Positions 1 to 7,503 of a stretch of 7,503 nt of DNA are shown here, piece by piece. Source of the stretch: Rubrivivax sp. (GTDB lineage: Bacteria; Pseudomonadota; Gammaproteobacteria; Burkholderiales; Burkholderiaceae); assembly GCA_004211235.1 (NCBI GenBank), contig SEEY01000175.1, positions 1-7,503 of the forward strand. Direction: 5' to 3'. The notes below the pieces were generated by a model. It made no database searches. It saw only the letters and a list, made by a program, of their open reading frames with translations, and was not told where the DNA came from. Position numbers and translations under genes: made by a program. Each line of letters begins with the position of its first letter. Position 1 is the stretch's first letter.

Positions 1-191
1 TCCTGGAACTGTTCCAGCCCATTCACGCAGCGCAGCAGCGTGCTCTTGCCCGAGCCGCTCTTGCCGATGATGGCGATGACCTCGCCACGCTTGACGTCCA
101 GGTCGATGCCCTTGAGCACCTCGTTGGCGCCGTAGGACTTGCGCAGCGCGGTGATGCGGACGATGGGGTCGGCATGGACTTCAGCGTGCAT
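1..191 (-). CDS. Polar amino acid-type ABC transporter ATP-binding protein, N-terminal part (cut by left edge)
   Basis: This is the ATPase subunit that would power the uptake system encoded by the genes to its right; it should sit on the cytoplasmic face bound to the two permeases. Only 63 codons are present. They show a conserved aromatic A-loop residue (Tyr20) and a perfect Walker A motif GKSGSGKST at residues 43-51, followed by [10 protein letters not shown], the typical start of the GlnQ/HisP-like family. The Q-loop, signature and Walker B lie beyond base 1. The ATG at 191 overlaps the end of the upstream permease gene by 11 bases (permease stop at 181-183), which suggests translational coupling. 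The family assignment is firm; the substrate cannot be read from this part. Confidence 0.93.
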
Positions 192-828
192 GGAGCTTGC
201 CTTCCAGATGTTGGGCGAAGAGGCTGACGGGGAAGCACAGCGCGAAGTACAGCAGCGCCACGCAACCGAAGACGAGGAAGGGCTTGAAGCTCGCGTTGGC
301 GATCATGCTGCCGGCCTTGGTGAGCTCGATGAAGCCGATGACCGACGCGAGCGCCGTGCCCTTGATGACCTGCACGAGAAAGCCGACGGTCGGCGCGATG
401 GCCAGACGCCCGGCCTGCGGCAGGATGACGTGGCGCAGCTGCTCGCCAAAGCTCATGGCCAGGCTGCGCGCCGCCTCCCACTGCCCGCGCGGCACGGCCT
501 CCACGCAGCCGCGCCAGATCTCGACGAGATAGGCGCTGGTGTAGAGCGTCAGGGCCAGCGCCGCGGCCGTCCAGGCCGACACCTCCAGCCCCAGCAGCGC
601 GAGGCCGAAGTAGGCGAGGAAAAGCTGCATCAGCAGCGGCGTGCCCTGGAAGATCTGCACGTACACGGAGATGGCACGGCGGGCGCCGGCGCCCAGGCCG
701 ATGCGCAGGGTCAGCAGCAGGCCGCCGACCAGGCCGCCGCCGATGAAGGCGATGGCTGATAACGCCACCGTCCAGCGCAGCGCCAGCAGCAGGTTGCGCA
801 CGATGTCCCAGAGGGTGAACTCAACCAT
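181..828 (-). CDS. Polar amino acid-type ABC transporter permease (second permease of the operon)
   Basis: Inner-membrane permease subunit of 215 residues, belonging to the His/Glu/Gln/Arg/opine group that pairs with a second permease. Hydrophobic segments occur at about residues 10-40, 54-80, 85-105, 142-168 and 183-205. The cytoplasmic EAA loop, which docks on the ATPase, is at residues 118-139 (begins [10 protein letters not shown], ends ILPQA). RGQWEAA just before it is characteristic of the family. I chose the ATG at 828 because it has a GGAG ribosome site 7 bases upstream and gives a normal N-terminus ([10 protein letters not shown]). The frame is open upstream to 954, but that extension is unlike a permease. 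The 3' end overlaps the ATPase start. Confidence 0.95.
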
Positions 829-1023
829 GTCCGTTCTCCATGACGTTTGCCAGCAAGCGCAGTTGACAGAGGGAGGGTGTTTCGGGCCGAGCGCCGGGCC
901 GCTCCCAAGCCGGCCCGGTTGGGCGATGTGCTTGCGGCTCAAGGCCGCAAGCATCGCCGTCCCCTCGGGGGACCGACCAGACTCCCTCGCGTTCAGCGAC
1001 GGGAGGTTGGGCGAGGGGCAGTC
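829..1023. other. 195-base non-coding gap between the two permease genes
   Basis: This is the only wide gap inside an otherwise overlapping or abutting operon. I see no convincing gene in it. Its right part (922-1005) carries three stacked inverted repeats, listed separately. At 904-913 it has the 10-mer CCCAAGCCGG, which recurs at 3346-3355 in the intergenic region upstream of the GntR gene. This suggests dispersed intergenic repeat sequence rather than unique leader sequence. The last bases before 828 carry the ribosome site of the downstream permease. Confidence 0.6.
922..1005. repeat. Cluster of three stacked inverted repeats (REP-like intergenic element)
   Basis: Three hairpins follow one another. 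The first pairs 922-926 and 929-938 with 944-953 and 954-958: 15 base pairs, a 2-base bulge (927-928) and a 5-base loop TCAAG. The second pairs GTCCCC (959-964) with GGGGAC (968-973) around 3 bases. The third pairs 982-989 with 997-1005, with one bulged base. None is followed by a T run on either strand, so a standard intrinsic terminator is unlikely. Position inside an ABC operon, between cistrons, fits an mRNA processing or stability element or a dispersed palindromic repeat. That role is inference; the pairing is seen directly. Confidence 0.65.
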
Positions 1024-1692
1024 TCATGCCGACCTCCGTCCGAATATGAAGCGCGGGCCGGCCCACATCAGCAGCCTGCGCGCGGCGATGGACAGCGCGA
1101 GGTAGGTCAGCGTCGCGATGATGAAGGCCTCGAAGGCGCGGAAGTTGCGACTCTGGATGAGGTTGGCCGCGTAGCTCAGTTCCTCGGTCGAGATCTGCCC
1201 GCAGACCGCCGAGCCGAGCATGACGATGATGATCTGGCTCGTCATCGCCGGCCACACGCGCTGGAAGGCGGGCGGCAGCACCACGCGGGTGAACACCTGC
1301 ACGGGGCTGAGCGCCAGGCTCTGCGCCGCCTCCCACTGGCCGCGCGGCGTGGCCTGGATGCCCGCACGCAGGATCTCGGTGCCGTAGGCGCCCAGGTTGA
1401 GCGTCATCGCGATCAGCGACGCGGCTTCAGGCGACAGCTTCACCCCCATGGCGGGCAGGCCGAAGAAGACGAAGAACAGCTGCACGATGAAGGGCGTGTT
1501 GCGCAGCAGCTCCACGTAGGCGCCCAGCAGCCGGCGCAGCCACGCCGGACCGCTGGCCCGCGACCAGGCGCCCAGCGTGGCGATCAGGAGGCCGAGCGGC
1601 GTGGCGATGAGCGTGAGGCCGAGCGTCCACGCCAGGCCCTTGAGCAGCAGCGGCCATTCGGCCAGTACGGCGAGGAAATCGAAGCTGATCAT
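1024..1692 (-). CDS. Polar amino acid-type ABC transporter permease (first permease of the operon)
   Basis: A 222-residue inner-membrane permease of the same family as the gene at 181-828, expected to form a heterodimer with it. Hydrophobic segments lie at about residues 18-42, 65-85, 88-106, 148-165 and 186-205. The sequence LLRNTPFIVQLFF (62-74) is a hallmark of amino acid permeases of this group, and the EAA loop spans residues 121-142 (begins EAAQSLALSP, ends VLPPA). The ATG at 1692 lies 17 bases after the stop of the binding protein gene. The ribosome site is weak (GAGCGG about 8 bases upstream), so expression may rely on coupling to the gene before it. Downstream there is an unusual 195-base gap before the partner permease. 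Confidence 0.95.
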   Translation of the reverse strand: MISFDFLAVLAEWPLLLKGLAWTLGLTLIATPLGLLIATLGAWSRASGPAWLRRLLGAYVELLRNTPFIVQLFFVFFGLPAMGVKLSPEAASLIAMTLNLGAYGTEILRAGIQATPRGQWEAAQSLALSPVQVFTRVVLPPAFQRVWPAMTSQIIIVMLGSAVCGQISTEELSYAANLIQSRNFRAFEAFIIATLTYLALSIAARRLLMWAGPRFIFGRRSA

Positions 1693-1709
1693 GGCGTCAG
1701 CCGCTCAGC

Positions 1710-2501
1710 TCACAACGGCAGTTCGCCGGTGCCGCGGCCCAGCCACTTTTTCGACAGCGCCTCCAGCTCGCCCGAGGCCTTGGCCGCCGCGATGATGGTG
1801 TTGACCTTGGCCAGCAAGGCGTCCTCGCCCTTGGCCACGCCGACGTAGCAGGGGCTGTCCTTCAGCAGCAGCTTGTATTCGGTGTTCAACGCCGGGTTGC
1901 GCTGCATCAGGTTGCCGGCGACGGCGGCGCTGGTGGCCAGCAGCTGGGTCTGGCCGGCGGCGAAGGCGGCGATGGTGGCGTTGTTGTCCTCGAAGCGCTT
2001 GTATTCCAGCGTGGCCGGCGCGACCTTGGCCAGCTCCTGGTCTTCCATCGCGCCACGCGTCACGGCCACGCTCTTGCCGCCCAGGTCGGCCCAGGTCTTG
2101 ATGGGCAGGCTCTTGGCCGCGAACACCGCCTGGAAGAACGGCGCATAGGCGGCGCTGAAGTTGATGACCTTCTCGCGGTCGGGGTTCTTGCCGAGCGTCG
2201 AGATGACCAGGTCGGCCTTCTTCGTCTGCAGGTAGGCAATGCGGTTGGCGCTCGTCACCGGCACCAGCTCGGCCTTGACGCCCAGCTTGGCGGCGATCAG
2301 CTGGGCCATCGCCACGTCCAGGCCCTGCGGCGCCATGTCGGGGCCGACGAAGCCGTAGGGCGGGTAGTCGGTGGGCACGGCGATCTTGACGGTCTTGCTC
2401 TTCGTGATGGTGTCCAGCGCGGTCTGGGCGTGGGCCTGGGAAGTCATGGCCAGCAGGCTCAGGCCGGCGATCAACAGGCGGCGGGAGAACGTCGGGGTCA
2501 T
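1710..2501 (-). CDS. Periplasmic substrate-binding protein of an amino acid-type ABC transporter (SBP_bac_3 family)
   Basis: A 263-residue secreted solute receptor that captures the ligand and delivers it to the permeases. Residues 1-25 form a Sec signal peptide: SRR, a hydrophobic core, then AHA before Gln26. The mature part has the family pattern: VPTDYPPYGF (42-51) lining the pocket, GLDVAMAQ (60-67), and STLGKNPDREKVINFS (101-116). By family homology Arg109 should grip the ligand carboxylate. The position where the second lobe usually has an Asp that binds the alpha-amino group appears to be Ser191 (in LLATSAAV), so the ligand may not be a standard amino acid. AGGAG lies 8 bases before the ATG. 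That ATG overlaps the GntR stop as ATGA, which indicates coupled translation. Confidence 0.94.
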   Translation of the reverse strand: MTPTFSRRLLIAGLSLLAMTSQAHAQTALDTITKSKTVKIAVPTDYPPYGFVGPDMAPQGLDVAMAQLIAAKLGVKAELVPVTSANRIAYLQTKKADLVISTLGKNPDREKVINFSAAYAPFFQAVFAAKSLPIKTWADLGGKSVAVTRGAMEDQELAKVAPATLEYKRFEDNNATIAAFAAGQTQLLATSAAVAGNLMQRNPALNTEYKLLLKDSPCYVGVAKGEDALLAKVNTIIAAAKASGELEALSKKWLGRGTGELPL

Positions 2502-3232
2502 AGCAGGGCTCCTAGGTAGGCGGGTTCAGCGGTCTCGGGAGGGGCGGTGGAAGCAGTGGAAGCAGGCATGGGCGCGAGCGCTTCGCGCAGCCGCTGCAGG
2601 GGGTCGTCGTCGGTGGGCAGGCGCAGCGCGGCCTGCACGCTGGCGAGGTGTTCGGCCATCAGCGCCTCGGCGCGGGCGCTGTCGCCCGAGGCCAGCGCAG
2701 CGACGATGGCGACGTGGTCCTGGCAGGACACCGCTGCGTCATGCGAGGACTGGTAGCGCATCGCGATCAGCGTCGTGCGTGCGGTGAAGTCGCGCAGCGT
2801 GTCGGCGAGCAGGCCGTTGCCCAGGCACTCGGCCAGGCAGACATGGAAGTCGCCAAGGAGGAAGCTGCGCGTGCCGACATCGTCGCCCTGCAGCGCGGCC
2901 TGCTCCTGCTGCAGGTGCTGCTGCAGCCGCGCGAGGGCGTCAGGCGGCAGCTGCGGCTGGCCGCGGATGAGGCCCAGCTCGATGACGCGGCGCGCCTCGA
3001 AGGCCTCGCGCACGTCGTCCGGCGTCGGCGCGATGACATACCAGCCGCGCCGCGCGCTGACCGTGACGATGCCGCGCGCCGCCAGGCGCGTCAGCGCCTC
3101 GCGGACGATGGTGCGGCTGCAGTCGAACAGCAACGCCAATTGCTGCTCGCCCAGGCGCGCCCCCGGGGCAAGCTTCTGCGCGAGCACCGCTTCGACGATG
3201 CGTTGACTGATATCGGTGGCGACGATGCCCAT
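2498..3232 (-). CDS. GntR family transcriptional regulator, FCD subfamily
   Basis: Probable ligand-responsive regulator of the transporter operon it heads. From the ATG at 3232 it has 244 residues. The N-terminal winged helix-turn-helix is at residues 28-66 (GEQQLALLFDCSRTIVREAL, then a wing ending RRGWYV). A mainly helical FCD effector domain follows from about residue 75; His130 (GDFH), His173 (QDH) and His195 (EHL) sit where the family usually has metal ligands. The last 30 or so residues are a low-complexity Ala/Pro/Thr tail. The frame is open to a TTG at 3283 (261 residues) and also has a GTG at 3268. None of the three has a good ribosome site. I prefer the ATG because the 16-base palindrome at 3271-3286 looks like an operator and the domain begins soon after. 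The stop overlaps the binding protein start by 4 bases. Confidence 0.9.
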   Translation of the reverse strand: MGIVATDISQRIVEAVLAQKLAPGARLGEQQLALLFDCSRTIVREALTRLAARGIVTVSARRGWYVIAPTPDDVREAFEARRVIELGLIRGQPQLPPDALARLQQHLQQEQAALQGDDVGTRSFLLGDFHVCLAECLGNGLLADTLRDFTARTTLIAMRYQSSHDAAVSCQDHVAIVAALASGDSARAEALMAEHLASVQAALRLPTDDDPLQRLREALAPMPASTASTAPPETAEPAYLGALL

Positions 3233-3270
3233 GGCGGCATCGTTCGCAGCTTCCGTGCCAGCGTCCACCT

Positions 3271-3286
3271 GCCTTGTATGCAAGGC
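3271..3286. promoter_or_regulatory. Candidate GntR/FCD operator palindrome
   Basis: GCCTTGTATGCAAGGC is a 16-base near-palindrome: the arms GCCTTG and CAAGGC match exactly around TATG. FCD-type GntR regulators are known to bind short palindromes of the TTGTNNNACAA or TTGTATACAA style, and this site lies about 39 bases upstream of the preferred start of such a regulator, at the head of the operon. Autoregulation of the whole gntR-transporter unit is the natural inference. No clear -35/-10 pair is visible next to it, and the site has not been compared with other copies. Confidence 0.5.
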
Positions 3287-3391
3287 GGGCGCACAAGATG
3301 TGGGCCGTCGCGCGGCCGCAGGGCACTGGCGCGGTGCCGAAGAGCCCCAAGCCGGGCCGGCCCCGGCCGACGGCCCGTGATGCCGCCCGGC
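3287..3391. other. GC-rich intergenic region with nested inverted repeats between the VOC gene and the gntR operon
   Basis: This region should hold the end of the leftward VOC transcript and the promoter of the gntR operon. GGGCCGTCG (3302-3310) is repeated inverted as CGACGGCCC (3368-3376). Inside are two further hairpins: GCCGGG/CCCGGC (3351-3356 with 3362-3367, 5-base loop) and GGCAC/GTGCC (3322-3326 with 3334-3338). On the minus strand the GCCGGG hairpin is followed by TTGGGGCTCTT, which is at best a poor terminator tail. I see no convincing promoter boxes and no gene. The 10-mer CCCAAGCCGG (3346-3355) also occurs at 904-913. Confidence 0.45.
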
Positions 3392-3799
3392 TCAGCCGCG
3401 CGCCTGGATCAGCTTCCAGCCATTGCCGGCCGGGTCGCGAAAGCCGGCGTCCACCGAGCCGAAGCGCTCCACCGGTGGCTGCGTGAATTCGACGCCCTTG
3501 GCCTGCCAACGGGCATGCGTGGCGCGGCAGTCGGCCACCGTCATCACCAGCGGCGGCATGGCGCCCTTGGCGACGAGGGCGCGCAGCTGCTGCGCCGTCG
3601 CGGCGTCCTGCATCGGCGGGCCGGGCACGAACAGGCCGAGCTGGAAGGACGGCTGGTCCGGGTGCTGCACCGTCAGCCAGCGGTAGTCGCCGTTGCGCAC
3701 GTCGGTGTGCACGCGAAAGCCGAGCTGGCCGACGTAGAAATCGAGCGCCTCGTCCTGGTTGTCCACGTAGATGCCCACCACTTCAATGCCCTGGTTCAT
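3392..3799 (-). CDS. VOC (glyoxalase/bleomycin resistance) superfamily protein
   Basis: A 135-residue protein with two paired beta-alpha-beta-beta-beta modules of the vicinal oxygen chelate fold. It opens with VVGIYVDNQDEALDFYVGQL (7-26), has QLGLF (53-57) at the end of the first module, and closes with FRDPAGNGWKLIQ (120-132), the usual C-terminal VOC signature. Family enzymes use a metal held by His/Glu/Gln side chains. At the usual ligand places I see Tyr11 and Gln53, and Lys129 where a Glu is common, so a classical metal centre is doubtful and the substrate is unknown. GGAGG lies 4 bases before the ATG. The start overlaps the AraC gene stop by 4 bases (ATGA), so the two are probably translated together; such AraC-VOC pairs recur in bacteria. 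Confidence 0.92.
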   Translation of the reverse strand: MNQGIEVVGIYVDNQDEALDFYVGQLGFRVHTDVRNGDYRWLTVQHPDQPSFQLGLFVPGPPMQDAATAQQLRALVAKGAMPPLVMTVADCRATHARWQAKGVEFTQPPVERFGSVDAGFRDPAGNGWKLIQARG

Positions 3800-4293
3800 G
3801 AGACCTCCGAATCCGTTGAGGCCCGGTTTGTATCGCCGGCCTCGCGGCGGCGCTTCTCCGAAACTGCGGTGATGAGATCGGGTCGGTGGGCGGCCTGCAC
3901 ATGGCAGGCCGGCACCTGCGCCAACTGGTGCTGGCTGGCACGCCAGCGCTCGCGGTGGGCGCCGGGGCCTTCGCCGGTCACGTCGCGGAAGGTGCGGCCA
4001 AAGGTGCCGAGGCTGCCCCAGCCGGTCTGGAAGGCGATGTCGGTGATGGGCACATCGGTGTCGCGCAGCAGCGCGGTGGCGCGCTCGATGCGGCGCGTCA
4101 GCAGGTAGCGGTGCGGCGGCAGGCCGAAGGCGTCCTTGAAGGAGCGCGCGAAATGAGCCGCCGACACGCCGCTGACCTCGGCCAGCCGCTCGACCGGCCA
4201 GGCTTCTTCAGAGGCGGCATCCATGCGGTCCTTGGCGCGCAGCAGGCGGCGCAGCAGCCGCGGGTCCTGGCTGGGGGGTGGCGAGGCGGGCAA
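3796..4293 (-). CDS. Small AraC family transcriptional regulator (DNA-binding domain only)
   Basis: A 165-residue regulator with the two helix-turn-helix motifs of AraC proteins and no N-terminal sensor domain. The first motif is around residues 34-53 (VERLAEVSGVSAAHFARSFK) and the second around 83-107 (ITDIAFQTGWGSLGTFGRTF). GLPPHRYLLTRR (57-68) links them as in the family. About 45 residues of basic, poorly conserved tail follow the domain. The start is a TTG at 4293 with AGG 6 bases upstream. It gives the usual run-up (LLRRLLRAKDRMD) before the first helix, whereas the first internal ATG (residue 24) would remove most of that. It starts 7 bases after the PhnB-like gene stop and overlaps the VOC gene, so it probably controls, or is co-expressed with, this group. 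Confidence 0.92.
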   Translation of the reverse strand: MPASPPPSQDPRLLRRLLRAKDRMDAASEEAWPVERLAEVSGVSAAHFARSFKDAFGLPPHRYLLTRRIERATALLRDTDVPITDIAFQTGWGSLGTFGRTFRDVTGEGPGAHRERWRASQHQLAQVPACHVQAAHRPDLITAVSEKRRREAGDTNRASTDSEVS

Positions 4294-4300
4294 GATGAAC

Positions 4301-4780
4301 CTAACCCCGGCGCGCCTTCTCGATGGCGGCGATGTCGATCTTCTTCATCGTCATCATGGCCTCGAAGGCCCGCTTGGCCGCGGCGCGGTCCGGGTCCTTG
4401 AAGGCCTCGCTCAGGGCGCGCGGCGTGATCTGCCAGGACAGGCCCCAGCGATCCTTGCACCAGCCGCACTGGCTCTCCTGGCCGCCGTTGCCGACGATCG
4501 CGTTCCAGAGCCGGTCGGTCTCTTCCTGGTCGGCGGTCTCGATCTGGAACGAGAAGGCCTCGCTGTGCTTGAAGGTCGGCCCGCCGTTCAGGCCGATGCA
4601 GGGAATGCCGCAGACCGTGAACTCGACCGTCAGCACCTGGCCCTGCTGGCCGTCCGGATAGTCGCCCGGCGCGCGGTGGACGGCGCCGACCGCGCTGTCG
4701 GGAAAGGTCTGGGCATAGAACCTGGCCGCGGCTTCGGCTTCGCCGTCGTACCAGAGGCAGAGCGTGTTCTTGGCAGTCAT
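4301..4780 (-). CDS. PhnB-like VOC family protein (3-demethylubiquinone methyltransferase-like annotation group)
   Basis: A 159-residue protein of the PhnB-like branch of the VOC fold. Seen directly: LCLWYDGEAEAAARFY (7-22), LNGGPTFKHSEAFSFQI (64-80), QEETDRLW (85-92), and a strongly conserved block with CGWCKDRWGLSWQI (105-118), followed by the helical C-terminus AFEAMMTMKKID. Databases often label this family 3-demethylubiquinone-9 3-methyltransferase, but it has no SAM-binding domain, so the label should not be taken as a function. AAGGAG lies 5 bases before the ATG at 4780, one of the best ribosome sites in the window. It is followed 7 bases later by the AraC gene and preceded 35 bases earlier by the DJ-1-like gene. 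Confidence 0.93.
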   Translation of the reverse strand: MTAKNTLCLWYDGEAEAAARFYAQTFPDSAVGAVHRAPGDYPDGQQGQVLTVEFTVCGIPCIGLNGGPTFKHSEAFSFQIETADQEETDRLWNAIVGNGGQESQCGWCKDRWGLSWQITPRALSEAFKDPDRAAAKRAFEAMMTMKKIDIAAIEKARRG

Positions 4781-4815
4781 GGAGGCTCCTTCAACGCAAT
4801 CAAGACAAGCGGCGT

Positions 4816-5436
4816 TCAGGCACTCGCGCGCATGAACGCCTCGAAGTATTTCGCATCGCCCGTCTTGTACAGCCCGTACCAGGCGGCCAGCACGTCGTCG
4901 TCGTAGACGTCGAGCGCCGTAAACACCTCGCGCGCGAACTCCAGCGGCCGCATCGCCGAAGCGGTGATGAGCAGGCCCGACCGCACCGCCGGCTTCTGCC
5001 GGTAGCAGGCCTCGCCCGCGTAGCCGGTGGCCACGAGGTAGCCCCGGGAATTGCTCGTGTGAGGCACGTCGTCCAGCAGGCCGGCGCGGGCCAGGCCGGC
5101 CGTGGCGCCACAGATGGCGGCCACCGGCGTGCCGGCGCTCAGGAACTCGCCGGCCAGGCTCGCGGCCTGCTTGTTCTTCTTCGCATCCCAGGCCGCGCCG
5201 CCGGGCAGCACCAGCATCGCGCTGTCGCGTGGCTTGAGCTTGTCCAGCGCCAGATCAGGCAGCACGCGCAGGCCGCCGGCCGTCTTCACCGGCTTGTCGG
5301 CGGCGCCCACGGTCCTGACCCGGAAACGGCCCGGCGCCTTCTGCCCCACCGGGCTGTTGATGCCGGCGACGAGGTAGCCGTATTCCCAGTCCGACATCGT
5401 GTCGAACACGAAGAGATGAACCGTCTGCTTCTTCAT
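4816..5436 (-). CDS. DJ-1/PfpI family protein (type 1 glutamine amidotransferase-like)
   Basis: A 206-residue single-domain protein of the DJ-1/PfpI superfamily, whose members are proteases, glyoxalases, chaperones or hydrolases with a reactive cysteine. Visible are VHLFVFDTMSDWEYGYL (6-22) with Glu16 at the place of the conserved acidic residue, MLVLPGGAAWD (74-84), and the nucleophile elbow AAICGATAGLARAGLL (106-121) with Cys109. HTSNSRGYL (126-134) follows, His126 being a candidate partner. The actual reaction cannot be told. I placed the start at the ATG at 5436; one at 5445 would add three residues, and neither has a clear ribosome site. The frame stays open far upstream, but that part is antisense to the response regulator and sigma genes and is not coding. 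It heads the leftward group and is divergent from the response regulator. Confidence 0.9.
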   Translation of the reverse strand: MKKQTVHLFVFDTMSDWEYGYLVAGINSPVGQKAPGRFRVRTVGAADKPVKTAGGLRVLPDLALDKLKPRDSAMLVLPGGAAWDAKKNKQAASLAGEFLSAGTPVAAICGATAGLARAGLLDDVPHTSNSRGYLVATGYAGEACYRQKPAVRSGLLITASAMRPLEFAREVFTALDVYDDDVLAAWYGLYKTGDAKYFEAFMRASA

Positions 5437-5445
5437 GGCATGCAT

Positions 5446-5532
5446 GCGCGTCGAGGGTGGACCGGAATTCTGCTGGCCACGGACGACCGAAGCGTTTCCT
5501 TTGGCAACCGCCGCCGTTGCCACAATGCCGGC
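5446..5532. promoter_or_regulatory. Divergent promoter region with a 7-base dyad, between the DJ-1-like gene and the response regulator
   Basis: These 87 bases must carry start signals in both directions. The perfect inverted repeat TGGCAAC (5502-5508) and GTTGCCA (5516-5522) with a 7-base spacer ends 10 bases before the response regulator ATG. It could be a binding site (possibly autoregulatory) or a leader hairpin that masks the start, because no good ribosome site is visible there. TTGGCA (5501-5506) and CACAAT (5521-5526) resemble promoter boxes but are only 14 bases apart, which is too short for a normal sigma-70 promoter. The function is inferred from position only. Confidence 0.4.
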
Positions 5533-6210
5533 ATGCGCCTGCTGCTCGTAGAAGACGACCCCATGATCGGTGAGAGCCTGCGCGAGGCCCTGCGCCGCCA
5601 GGGCTTCGCGGCCGACTGGGTGCGCGACGGCCAGGCTGCCGATGCAGTGCTGTCCAGCGGCGAGCGCTTTGACGCCGTGCTGCTGGACCTGGGCCTGCCC
5701 AAGCTCGGCGGCGTGGAGGTGCTGCGTGCGCTGCGAGCGCGTGGCGACGCGACGCCGGTCATCGTGCTGACGGCGCGCGATGCGCTCACCGACAAGGTCG
5801 CCGGCCTGGACGCAGGCGCGGACGACTACCTCGTCAAGCCCTTCGAGCTGGACGAGCTGCTGGCCCGGCTGCGCGCCATCACGCGCCGCCAAAGCGGCCG
5901 CACCGACACGGCGCTGACCGTGGCCGACCTGCGGCTGGACCCGGCCACGCGCGAGGTGACACGGGCGGGGCGGCCGGTGCTGCTGTCGGCCCGCGAGTTC
6001 GCGCTGCTGCAGGCGCTGCTGGAGCGGCCCGGCGCGATCGTCTCGCGCGCGCAGCTGGAAGACCGCCTCTACGGCTGGGGCGAGGAGCTGGAGAGCAACG
6101 CCATCAGCGTCTACATGCACCAGCTGCGCAAGAAGCTCGGGCCCGACCTGCTGCACACGGTGCGCGGCCTGGGCTATTACGCCGGCCCGGAGAAGGGCGG
6201 CGCCGCGTGA
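5533..6210 (+). CDS. OmpR/QseB-type two-component response regulator
   Basis: A 225-residue cytoplasmic DNA-binding regulator activated by phosphorylation. The receiver domain is residues 1-115, with acidic pocket Glu7-Asp8-Asp9 (LLVEDDP), phospho-acceptor Asp52 (LLDLGLP), switch Thr80 (VLTARDA) and Lys102 (YLVKPF). The C-terminal winged helix of the Trans_reg_C type is about 125-220, with LSAREFALLQALLE (144-157), LYGWGEELESNAISVYMHQL (178-197) and TVRGLGYY at the end. The ESNAISVYMHQLRKKLG stretch is like QseB/PmrA/TctD. The ATG at 5533 gives the exact family N-terminus MRLLLVEDD; the open frame further left is only antisense to the DJ-1-like gene. Such genes are usually followed by a histidine kinase gene, but here the 3' end overlaps the sigma factor gene on the other strand by 34 bases, so no kinase is encoded downstream. 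Confidence 0.95.
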   Translation: MRLLLVEDDPMIGESLREALRRQGFAADWVRDGQAADAVLSSGERFDAVLLDLGLPKLGGVEVLRALRARGDATPVIVLTARDALTDKVAGLDAGADDYLVKPFELDELLARLRAITRRQSGRTDTALTVADLRLDPATREVTRAGRPVLLSAREFALLQALLERPGAIVSRAQLEDRLYGWGEELESNAISVYMHQLRKKLGPDLLHTVRGLGYYAGPEKGGAA

Positions 6211-7427
6211 GGCGCCTCCCCCGCTGACGCCGCGAGGAACTCGCGCAGCCGCGGGTCCTCGGTCAAGCCGATGGCGCGCTGCAGAGCGGCCTGGCATCCC
6301 GGCGAGCCGGCCAGTCCGGCCAGCCGCAGCACATGCGCACGCGCCACCCAGTAGGCGGGGTAGGTCTGCACGGCGGCGGCCGGCAGCGCGTCCAGCGTCG
6401 CCAGCCCGGCGGTCGGGTCGCCCGCCTCCGCCTGAGCCACCGCCTGGCCCACGCGCGCGCCCAGGCTGGGGTGGTGGGCCACCAGCAAGGCATAGAGCTG
6501 GGCGATGCCCGCCCAGGGCGTGCGCCCGGTGACGCGGCGCTGCGCATGCGCCGACTGGATGGCCGCCTCCAGCTGGAAGGGGCCGGGCTGGCGCAACCGC
6601 GCCGCCGTCCACAGCGCCTGCTCGGCGTGGGTGATCAGGGCCACGTCCCAGGCCGACGGGTCCTGCCGGGGCAGCGGCACGAAGCGGCCCGCCGCATCGA
6701 ACTGCGCCGCCCGCCGCGCCTCGACATGCAGCAGCAGCGCCAGCAGGCCCCAGGCCTCGGCCTGGTCGGGCTGCAGCGAGGTGACGAGCCGGGCCAGGAA
6801 GACGGCCTCCTCGCGCAGGTCGCCGGCCGGCGTGTCGGGGTCGCGCCGGCCCAGCGTGTACGCGCCGTAGATGGCATCCAGCACGGCGGCCAGGCGCTCC
6901 GGCAACTCGCGGGCCTCCGGCGGGTCGAAACGCAGGCCGGTCTCGCGGATGCGCGCCTTGGCGCGCACCAGGCGCTGCGCCATCGCCGCGGGCGACACGA
7001 GAAAGGCGCTGGCGATGGCCTGGGCGTCCAGGCCCAGCACCGCCTGCAGCATCAGCGGCGCGCGCACGTTCTCGGCCAGCGCGGGGTGGGCGCAGACGAA
7101 CATCAGCCGCAGCCGCGCATCGGGCACGGGCTCGGCGGCCGGGGTGGCCACGTCGGCATCGAACAGCGCCGTCACGGCCGGGTCCTGCGTGAGGCGCGTG
7201 TGCCGCGCCTCGTGGAGCAGCCGGCGTTTGGCGGCGGCCATCAGCCAGGCCTCCGGCGAGGCCGGCAGGCCCTGCTCGGGCCAGGTGCGCAGCGCGGCGG
7301 CGAAGGCCTCGCTGAGCGCGTCCTCGGCCGCGGCCAGGTCGCGCCACTGCCAGGCCAGCAGCGCGACCAGCCGGCCATAGCACTCGCGGGCGACGCGCTC
7401 CGCCGCCTGAGCGGCCGTCTGGCTCAC
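6177..7427 (-). CDS. ECF-type RNA polymerase sigma factor with long C-terminal extension (DUF6596/TPR-like, ECF42-like)
   Basis: A 416-residue sigma factor. The sigma-2 region is about residues 15-78 (YGRLVALLAW, AAAEDALSEAFAAALRTWP, then WLMAAAKRRLLHEAR) and the sigma-4 region about 104-165 (DARLRLMFVCAHPALAEN, then MLQAVLGLDAQAIASAFLVS, AMAQRLVRAKARI). From about 175 on comes a helical extension of the DUF6596/TPR-like type: EEAVFLARLV, LLALLLHVEARRAAQFD, FQLEAAIQSAHAQRR, RAIGLTEDP. In ECF42-type factors this extension takes part in regulation in place of an anti-sigma factor, and the genes often accompany YCII/DGPF genes; none is in view here. The start is a GTG at 7427 with no ribosome site. 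It lies inside the loop of a perfect inverted repeat, so only about 13 bases of upstream sequence may be genuine. The 3' end overlaps the response regulator tail to tail. Confidence 0.92.
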   Translation of the reverse strand: MSQTAAQAAERVARECYGRLVALLAWQWRDLAAAEDALSEAFAAALRTWPEQGLPASPEAWLMAAAKRRLLHEARHTRLTQDPAVTALFDADVATPAAEPVPDARLRLMFVCAHPALAENVRAPLMLQAVLGLDAQAIASAFLVSPAAMAQRLVRAKARIRETGLRFDPPEARELPERLAAVLDAIYGAYTLGRRDPDTPAGDLREEAVFLARLVTSLQPDQAEAWGLLALLLHVEARRAAQFDAAGRFVPLPRQDPSAWDVALITHAEQALWTAARLRQPGPFQLEAAIQSAHAQRRVTGRTPWAGIAQLYALLVAHHPSLGARVGQAVAQAEAGDPTAGLATLDALPAAAVQTYPAYWVARAHVLRLAGLAGSPGCQAALQRAIGLTEDPRLREFLAASAGEAPHAAPPFSGPA

Positions 7428-7503
7428 TGCGCCGGCGGCGGAGCGCGTCGCCCGCGAGTGCTATGGCCGGCTGGTCGCGCTGCTGGCCTGGCAGTGGCGC
7501 GAC
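7338..7503. repeat. Perfect 70-base inverted repeat at the right edge, inside the sigma factor N-terminus
   Basis: Bases 7434-7503 are the exact reverse complement of 7338-7407 (70 of 70), around a 26-base loop (7408-7433) that itself has a 5-base pairing TGAGC/GCTCA (7408-7412 with 7422-7426). Read on the plus strand, 7441-7503 translates as ERVARECYGRLV and onward for 21 codons, identical to residues 10-30 of the sigma factor, without a start codon. The arm continues to the last base, so its true length is unknown. The innermost seven pairs (CGCCGCC with GGCGGCG) could have primed a fold-back. The most probable cause is a library or assembly artefact at a contig end; a real inverted duplication cannot be excluded from the sequence. 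Confidence 0.97.

Follow-up and report, generated by a model that had tools for sequence, protein, structure and literature searches.

The inverted sigma factor gene start at the right end of a Burkholderiales sequence: a probable fold-back chimera that replaces a YCII partner gene

The window (the whole stretch of DNA analysed here, 7503 nucleotides) closes with the beginning of a sigma factor gene presented twice, the second time in inverted orientation, which raises the question of whether this inverted copy belongs to the genome and, if it does not, what lies upstream of the sigma factor gene. The two arms (7338–7407 and 7434–7503) are reverse complements without a single mismatch in 70 bases and are separated by a spacer of 26 bases (7408–7433), the final base of the second arm being base 7503 of 7503. 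The longest exact inverted match in the rest of the window (1–7337) measured 15 bases, and the longest in each of 20 random sequences sharing the first-order composition of the window measured 13–24 bases. As single-stranded DNA, the stretch 7338–7503 folds at −123.4 kcal/mol, against a shuffle mean of −53.0 (n = 200; z = −20.3), and the 26-base loop is itself non-palindromic. The features of the window are as follows.

7338–7407, minus strand: first arm, genuine, from the 5′ region of the sigma factor gene and putative fold-back template; reverse complement of 7434–7503 (70/70).
7408–7433, minus strand: loop, genuine; the GTG start of the sigma factor gene (7427–7425) overlaps the TGA stop of a YCII gene (7426–7424); ungapped and of equal length in loci L005 and L006 of two relatives.
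7434–7441, no strand: microhomology GGCGGCGG, complementary to 7400–7407; contains the putative chimeric junction.
7442–7503, plus strand: inverted copy of 7338–7399, most likely false; occupies the place of the YCII gene in relatives.
6177–7427, minus strand: sigma factor gene, whole within the window; open reading frame with Pfam Sigma70 regions 2 and 4 and DUF6596 (6180–7427 scanned).
Plus strand: response regulator.
Window mostly minus strand: ABC transporter, with two permeases and a solute-binding protein.
3–191: start of an ATPase gene, judged from sequence only.
Also in the window: a GntR/FCD regulator, a glyoxalase-family protein, an AraC-type regulator, a 3-dmu-9_3-mt-family protein and a DJ-1/PfpI protein.

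The kin of the window belong to the Roseateles/Pelomonas group of the Burkholderiales and include Pelomonas sp. Root405 and Roseateles puraquae. Of 20 same-genus genomes searched, five have a sigma start region closely orthologous to that of the window (80–90% identity), the remaining 15 giving matches that were either short or at most 75% identical. Alignment of the five orthologues with the window ends at 7441 (G009), 7439 (G005), 7441 (G002), 7432 (G020) and 7415 (G019). The two most colinear loci, L005 of G009 and L006 of G002, have a loop of equal length and follow the window without gaps up to 7441, where they diverge: beyond this base they read CGGCAACACC or CGGCAGCACC, whereas the window reads AGCGCGTC, i.e. 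the sigma start reversed. G005, G020 and G019 are less similar between the YCII and sigma genes and carry extra bases there. An inverted repeat of at least 20 bases across the junction was absent from the three genomes checked (G009, G005 and G002), and in relatives the locus is interior to contigs of up to 702 kb. For the second arm, the best match in four of the five orthologue genomes falls on the site of the first arm itself, in antisense, while in the fifth (G019) the matches listed include none. The first arm differs from the five orthologues by 3, 4, 6, 12 and 13 mismatches in 70 bases, compared with 0 in 70 between the two arms. Genuine sequence thus most likely ends at about 7441. The first-pass annotation had preferred a self-primed fold-back artefact at a contig end, had placed the boundary at about 7440 and had named a clean genome differing beyond that point as one confirmation; the comparison supports the artefact reading, since all five orthologues leave the window at 7415–7441, and the boundary was correct to one base.

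Weak matches of the second arm elsewhere (e.g. G005:C153, G005:C121, G003:C28 and G018:C4) were considered as inverted copies and rejected, as the same stretches are matched by the first arm; we read them as paralogue-like or chance matches. The Root405 locus (L254) has an imperfect 21-base palindrome (76%) situated 14 bases beyond the junction and not across it.

In L005 and L006 an open reading frame with a YCII domain (PF03795; E = 1e-16 and 4.8e-16 respectively) lies directly upstream of the sigma factor gene, its TGA overlapping the sigma GTG. The window retains the last five codons of this gene and its stop (PPPAQ and TGA, 7441–7424) with the same GTG/TGA overlap, although the first P codons sit in the GGC-rich microhomology, so that evidence independent of the junction comes only from A, Q and the stop (7432–7424). 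A scan of genome_contigs with the sigma protein, a collection from which the window's own genome record may be left out, yielded 541 relatives. A tblastn survey in which the L005 protein was the query (E ≤ 1e-3) covered the best 80 of these, 78 of which had enough upstream sequence; a YCII match was found just upstream and on the same strand in 68 of these 78, including the loci of all five orthologue genomes (L034, L035, L036, L040 and L043). The ten relatives with no match were nine cyanobacteria and one Paenibacillus, in which diverged YCII genes could be missed by a single tblastn query. Given that relatives carry the YCII gene upstream and that the window keeps its end, the fold-back breaks a common two-gene unit within the final codons of its first gene, and a YCII gene is to be expected upstream of the sigma factor gene of the window. 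The earlier suggestion that the arm beyond about 7440 may not exist is therefore probably right, as relatives differ there, but its corollary, that the real upstream region is then unknown, need not apply, as relatives carry a YCII gene whose end is retained here. The lack of a YCII gene beside the sigma factor in the window is probably not biology. DGPF is a name of the YCII partner, and a literature search on the sigma group with DGPF found no paper, so that ECF42 is put forward here as no more than a candidate family for this sigma factor and is not claimed.

The eight bases just before the switch, GGCGGCGG, are complementary to 7400–7407, where copying would begin. Our recount agreed with the first-pass annotation on the 70/70 arms, the 26-base loop and the arm that reaches the last base, and the complement reported at the inner end is also present, though it spans not seven but eight bases (7400–7407 with 7434–7441) when counted to the point where the window departs from its relatives. 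At a random fold-back join in the window (distance 10–100), at least eight complementary bases occur with a frequency of about 9e-5, while 0.8% of window sites have some complementary partner of eight bases or longer within 100 bases. By its sequence the junction looks like one formed by priming. Among published phi29 chimeras, 406 of 475 were inverted, with 2–21 complementary bases and with numbers that drop with distance (PMC1855051), and chimera overlaps were mostly of 5–8 bases (PMC4595205). A literature search on self-priming in MDA returned no paper. An eight-base complement would, however, serve equally for a rearrangement in the cell.

The length of the arm may have an explanation as well. 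When the fold-back is prolonged and a contig is taken to stop just before any canonical k-mer recurs, only k = 71 among values from 21 to 141 places the end of the unique k-mer path exactly at 7503, a value that is one number fitted from one contig. The end of the window looks like the end of an assembly path. Hairpin edges, which join an edge to its own reverse complement, have been described for transcriptome graphs by the rnaSPAdes authors, who state that similar chimeric connections occur with single-cell MDA (PMC6736328).

Terminal fold-backs were rare among the contig ends of both control sets. Among 148 usable true contig ends (79 contigs from G012 C1–40, G001 C1–20, G028 C1–20 and G042 C1–20, leaving out the 21 contigs of 100 that read N, as well as 10 right-hand ends truncated at 20 kb) a terminal fold-back of at least 14 bases was found once, in G028:C1 (arm 27, spacer 0). 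The second set (G028 C21–40, eight N contigs dropped) had none at the 24 ends of 12 contigs. None of the 306 ends of 153 loci, many of them cuts and not contig ends, had a fold-back of at least 16 bases, and when the interior of 257 loci was searched for exact arms of at least 30 bases with a spacer of up to 300, matches occurred only in the 21 N contigs. For the G028:C1 end, the path rule fits k = 54 and 55 and fails at eight other values tried, making this contig one further case for the rule but no proof of it. Should it prove valid on more cases, the rule, which relates arm length to k and spacer, could be used to mark contig ends of this type even where no reads are available. The final 54 bases of G028:C1 (L214) form a perfect 27 + 27 palindrome with no spacer, a candidate k-mer path end.

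The junction was also sought elsewhere. No exact match was found in viral_contigs, from which the window's own genome record may be left out, or in 173 loci. A plasmid search returned 19 records with distant matches (60–80% identity), six of which are annotated as a sigma factor or DUF6596 protein, and none of these matches extends beyond query base 247, i.e. window 7446 (here too the window's own genome record may be left out).

We consider it very likely that the right end of the window is a fold-back chimera formed in vitro and carried to the contig end by the assembler. Nearby sequence recurs in the second arm as its exact reverse complement, the junction has short complementarity and the relatives continue differently. 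On this explanation, a 3′ end at about 7441, within the last codons of the YCII gene, would have annealed through GGCGGCGG to CCGCCGCC at 7400–7407, on the same strand or on a sister strand, and its extension would have copied the sigma start in reverse. Such fold-back reads would then have led a k-mer assembler along a path that ran into its own reverse complement and ended there, so that for k = 71 an arm of k − 1 = 70 bases was left. We infer that the polymerase step was MDA or library end repair, and the kind of assembler and the status of 7503 as a contig end are likewise put forward as probable. Inverted chimeras of phi29 MDA resemble the present case in joining nearby segments in inverted orientation with a short complement at the junction (PMC1855051; PMC4595205), but their distance peaks at 250–300, far longer than the fold-back distance here (PMC4595205). 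The PDSM model of library chimeras at inverted repeats or palindromes offers a second likeness: single strands self-pair at short inverted repeats and end repair of these strands in the library yields similar reads; that model concerns reads from human targeted sequencing, whereas the present fold-back is known only as an assembled end (PMC10908179). In the rnaSPAdes hairpin edges, an erroneous edge likewise links a correct edge to its own reverse complement, but in transcriptomes, whereas genomic or metagenomic DNA is concerned here (PMC6736328). In practice, 7442–7503 should be masked and not be read as genome, and the sigma factor gene should be taken as complete.

Tandem-inversion duplication in bacteria involves snap-back at a short quasi-palindrome, and a recent snap-back in vivo leaves a short complement, a small loop and perfect identity. 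A real duplication of this type, in which replication snapped back at the short complement in part of the population and so broke the contig, would accordingly produce a junction of the same kind as that seen here, but a real rearrangement in cells is unsupported at this locus and we give it only a slim chance. It is absent from all five orthologous loci (three of them checked for inverted repeats), it would lose the YCII–sigma unit unless an intact copy persists, and an end at exactly k − 1 for k = 71 requires no biology. Inverted amplification through replication errors is a known process (PMC4689423), yet the eight-base junction falls short of the cut-off of at least 12 bp of junction microhomology deduced for true inversions in Salmonella chemostats (PMC3411829). 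Marginally less probable again is the more specific proposal that part of the population carries a real inversion by snap-back in which the inverted sigma start has taken the place of the YCII partner, thereby uncoupling the sigma factor from it.

It is highly improbable that this species carries, as a fixed feature, a second and inverted copy of the beginning of the sigma gene; a true inverted gene copy was among the alternatives first suggested. The copy is perfect and its sequence is visible only as far as 7503, where the window end cuts it, but its sigma frame has no ATG, GTG or TTG after the stop at 7408–7410, its 0/70 differences contrast with 3–13/70 among orthologues, its junction falls within the last codons of the YCII gene, and no second locus appears among the matches listed in the five relatives. 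The other alternative suggested at the outset, a covalently closed hairpin end of a linear replicon, would account for a perfect inverted repeat at the end of the sequence but can be dismissed almost entirely, as closed hairpin telomeres are terminal palindromes with little or no loop, whereas the arms here are coding sequence of an ordinary gene around a 26-base non-palindromic loop, at a locus that in relatives runs on into the YCII gene inside long contigs.

Several further observations concern the rest of the window. A search of Rfam returned nothing at the gathering threshold. The response regulator and sigma factor genes are convergent and adjacent (6177–6230), and the same holds for G005 and G002. 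In Pelomonas sp. Root405 the two are separated by about 2.2 kb, which contains a 676-codon open reading frame that, judged by its sequence, resembles a PAS-type hybrid histidine kinase. In G001, the nearest by shared words of the genomes compared (estimated 91% complete), the best match to the sigma protein has 39% identity and none is close, and DNA matches of 85–88% to the transporter, GntR regulator and response regulator genes are retained. A dispersed intergenic repeat of about 140 bases (880–1022) lies between the two ABC permease genes; it has at least 30–42 matches in each of five same-genus genomes (40 candidates scored per genome) and as DNA it forms several hairpins (z = −5.3), with no Rfam match at the gathering threshold. 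Root405 carries a copy of this repeat elsewhere in the same locus (L254, 383–522), between the equivalents of window positions 170 and 178.
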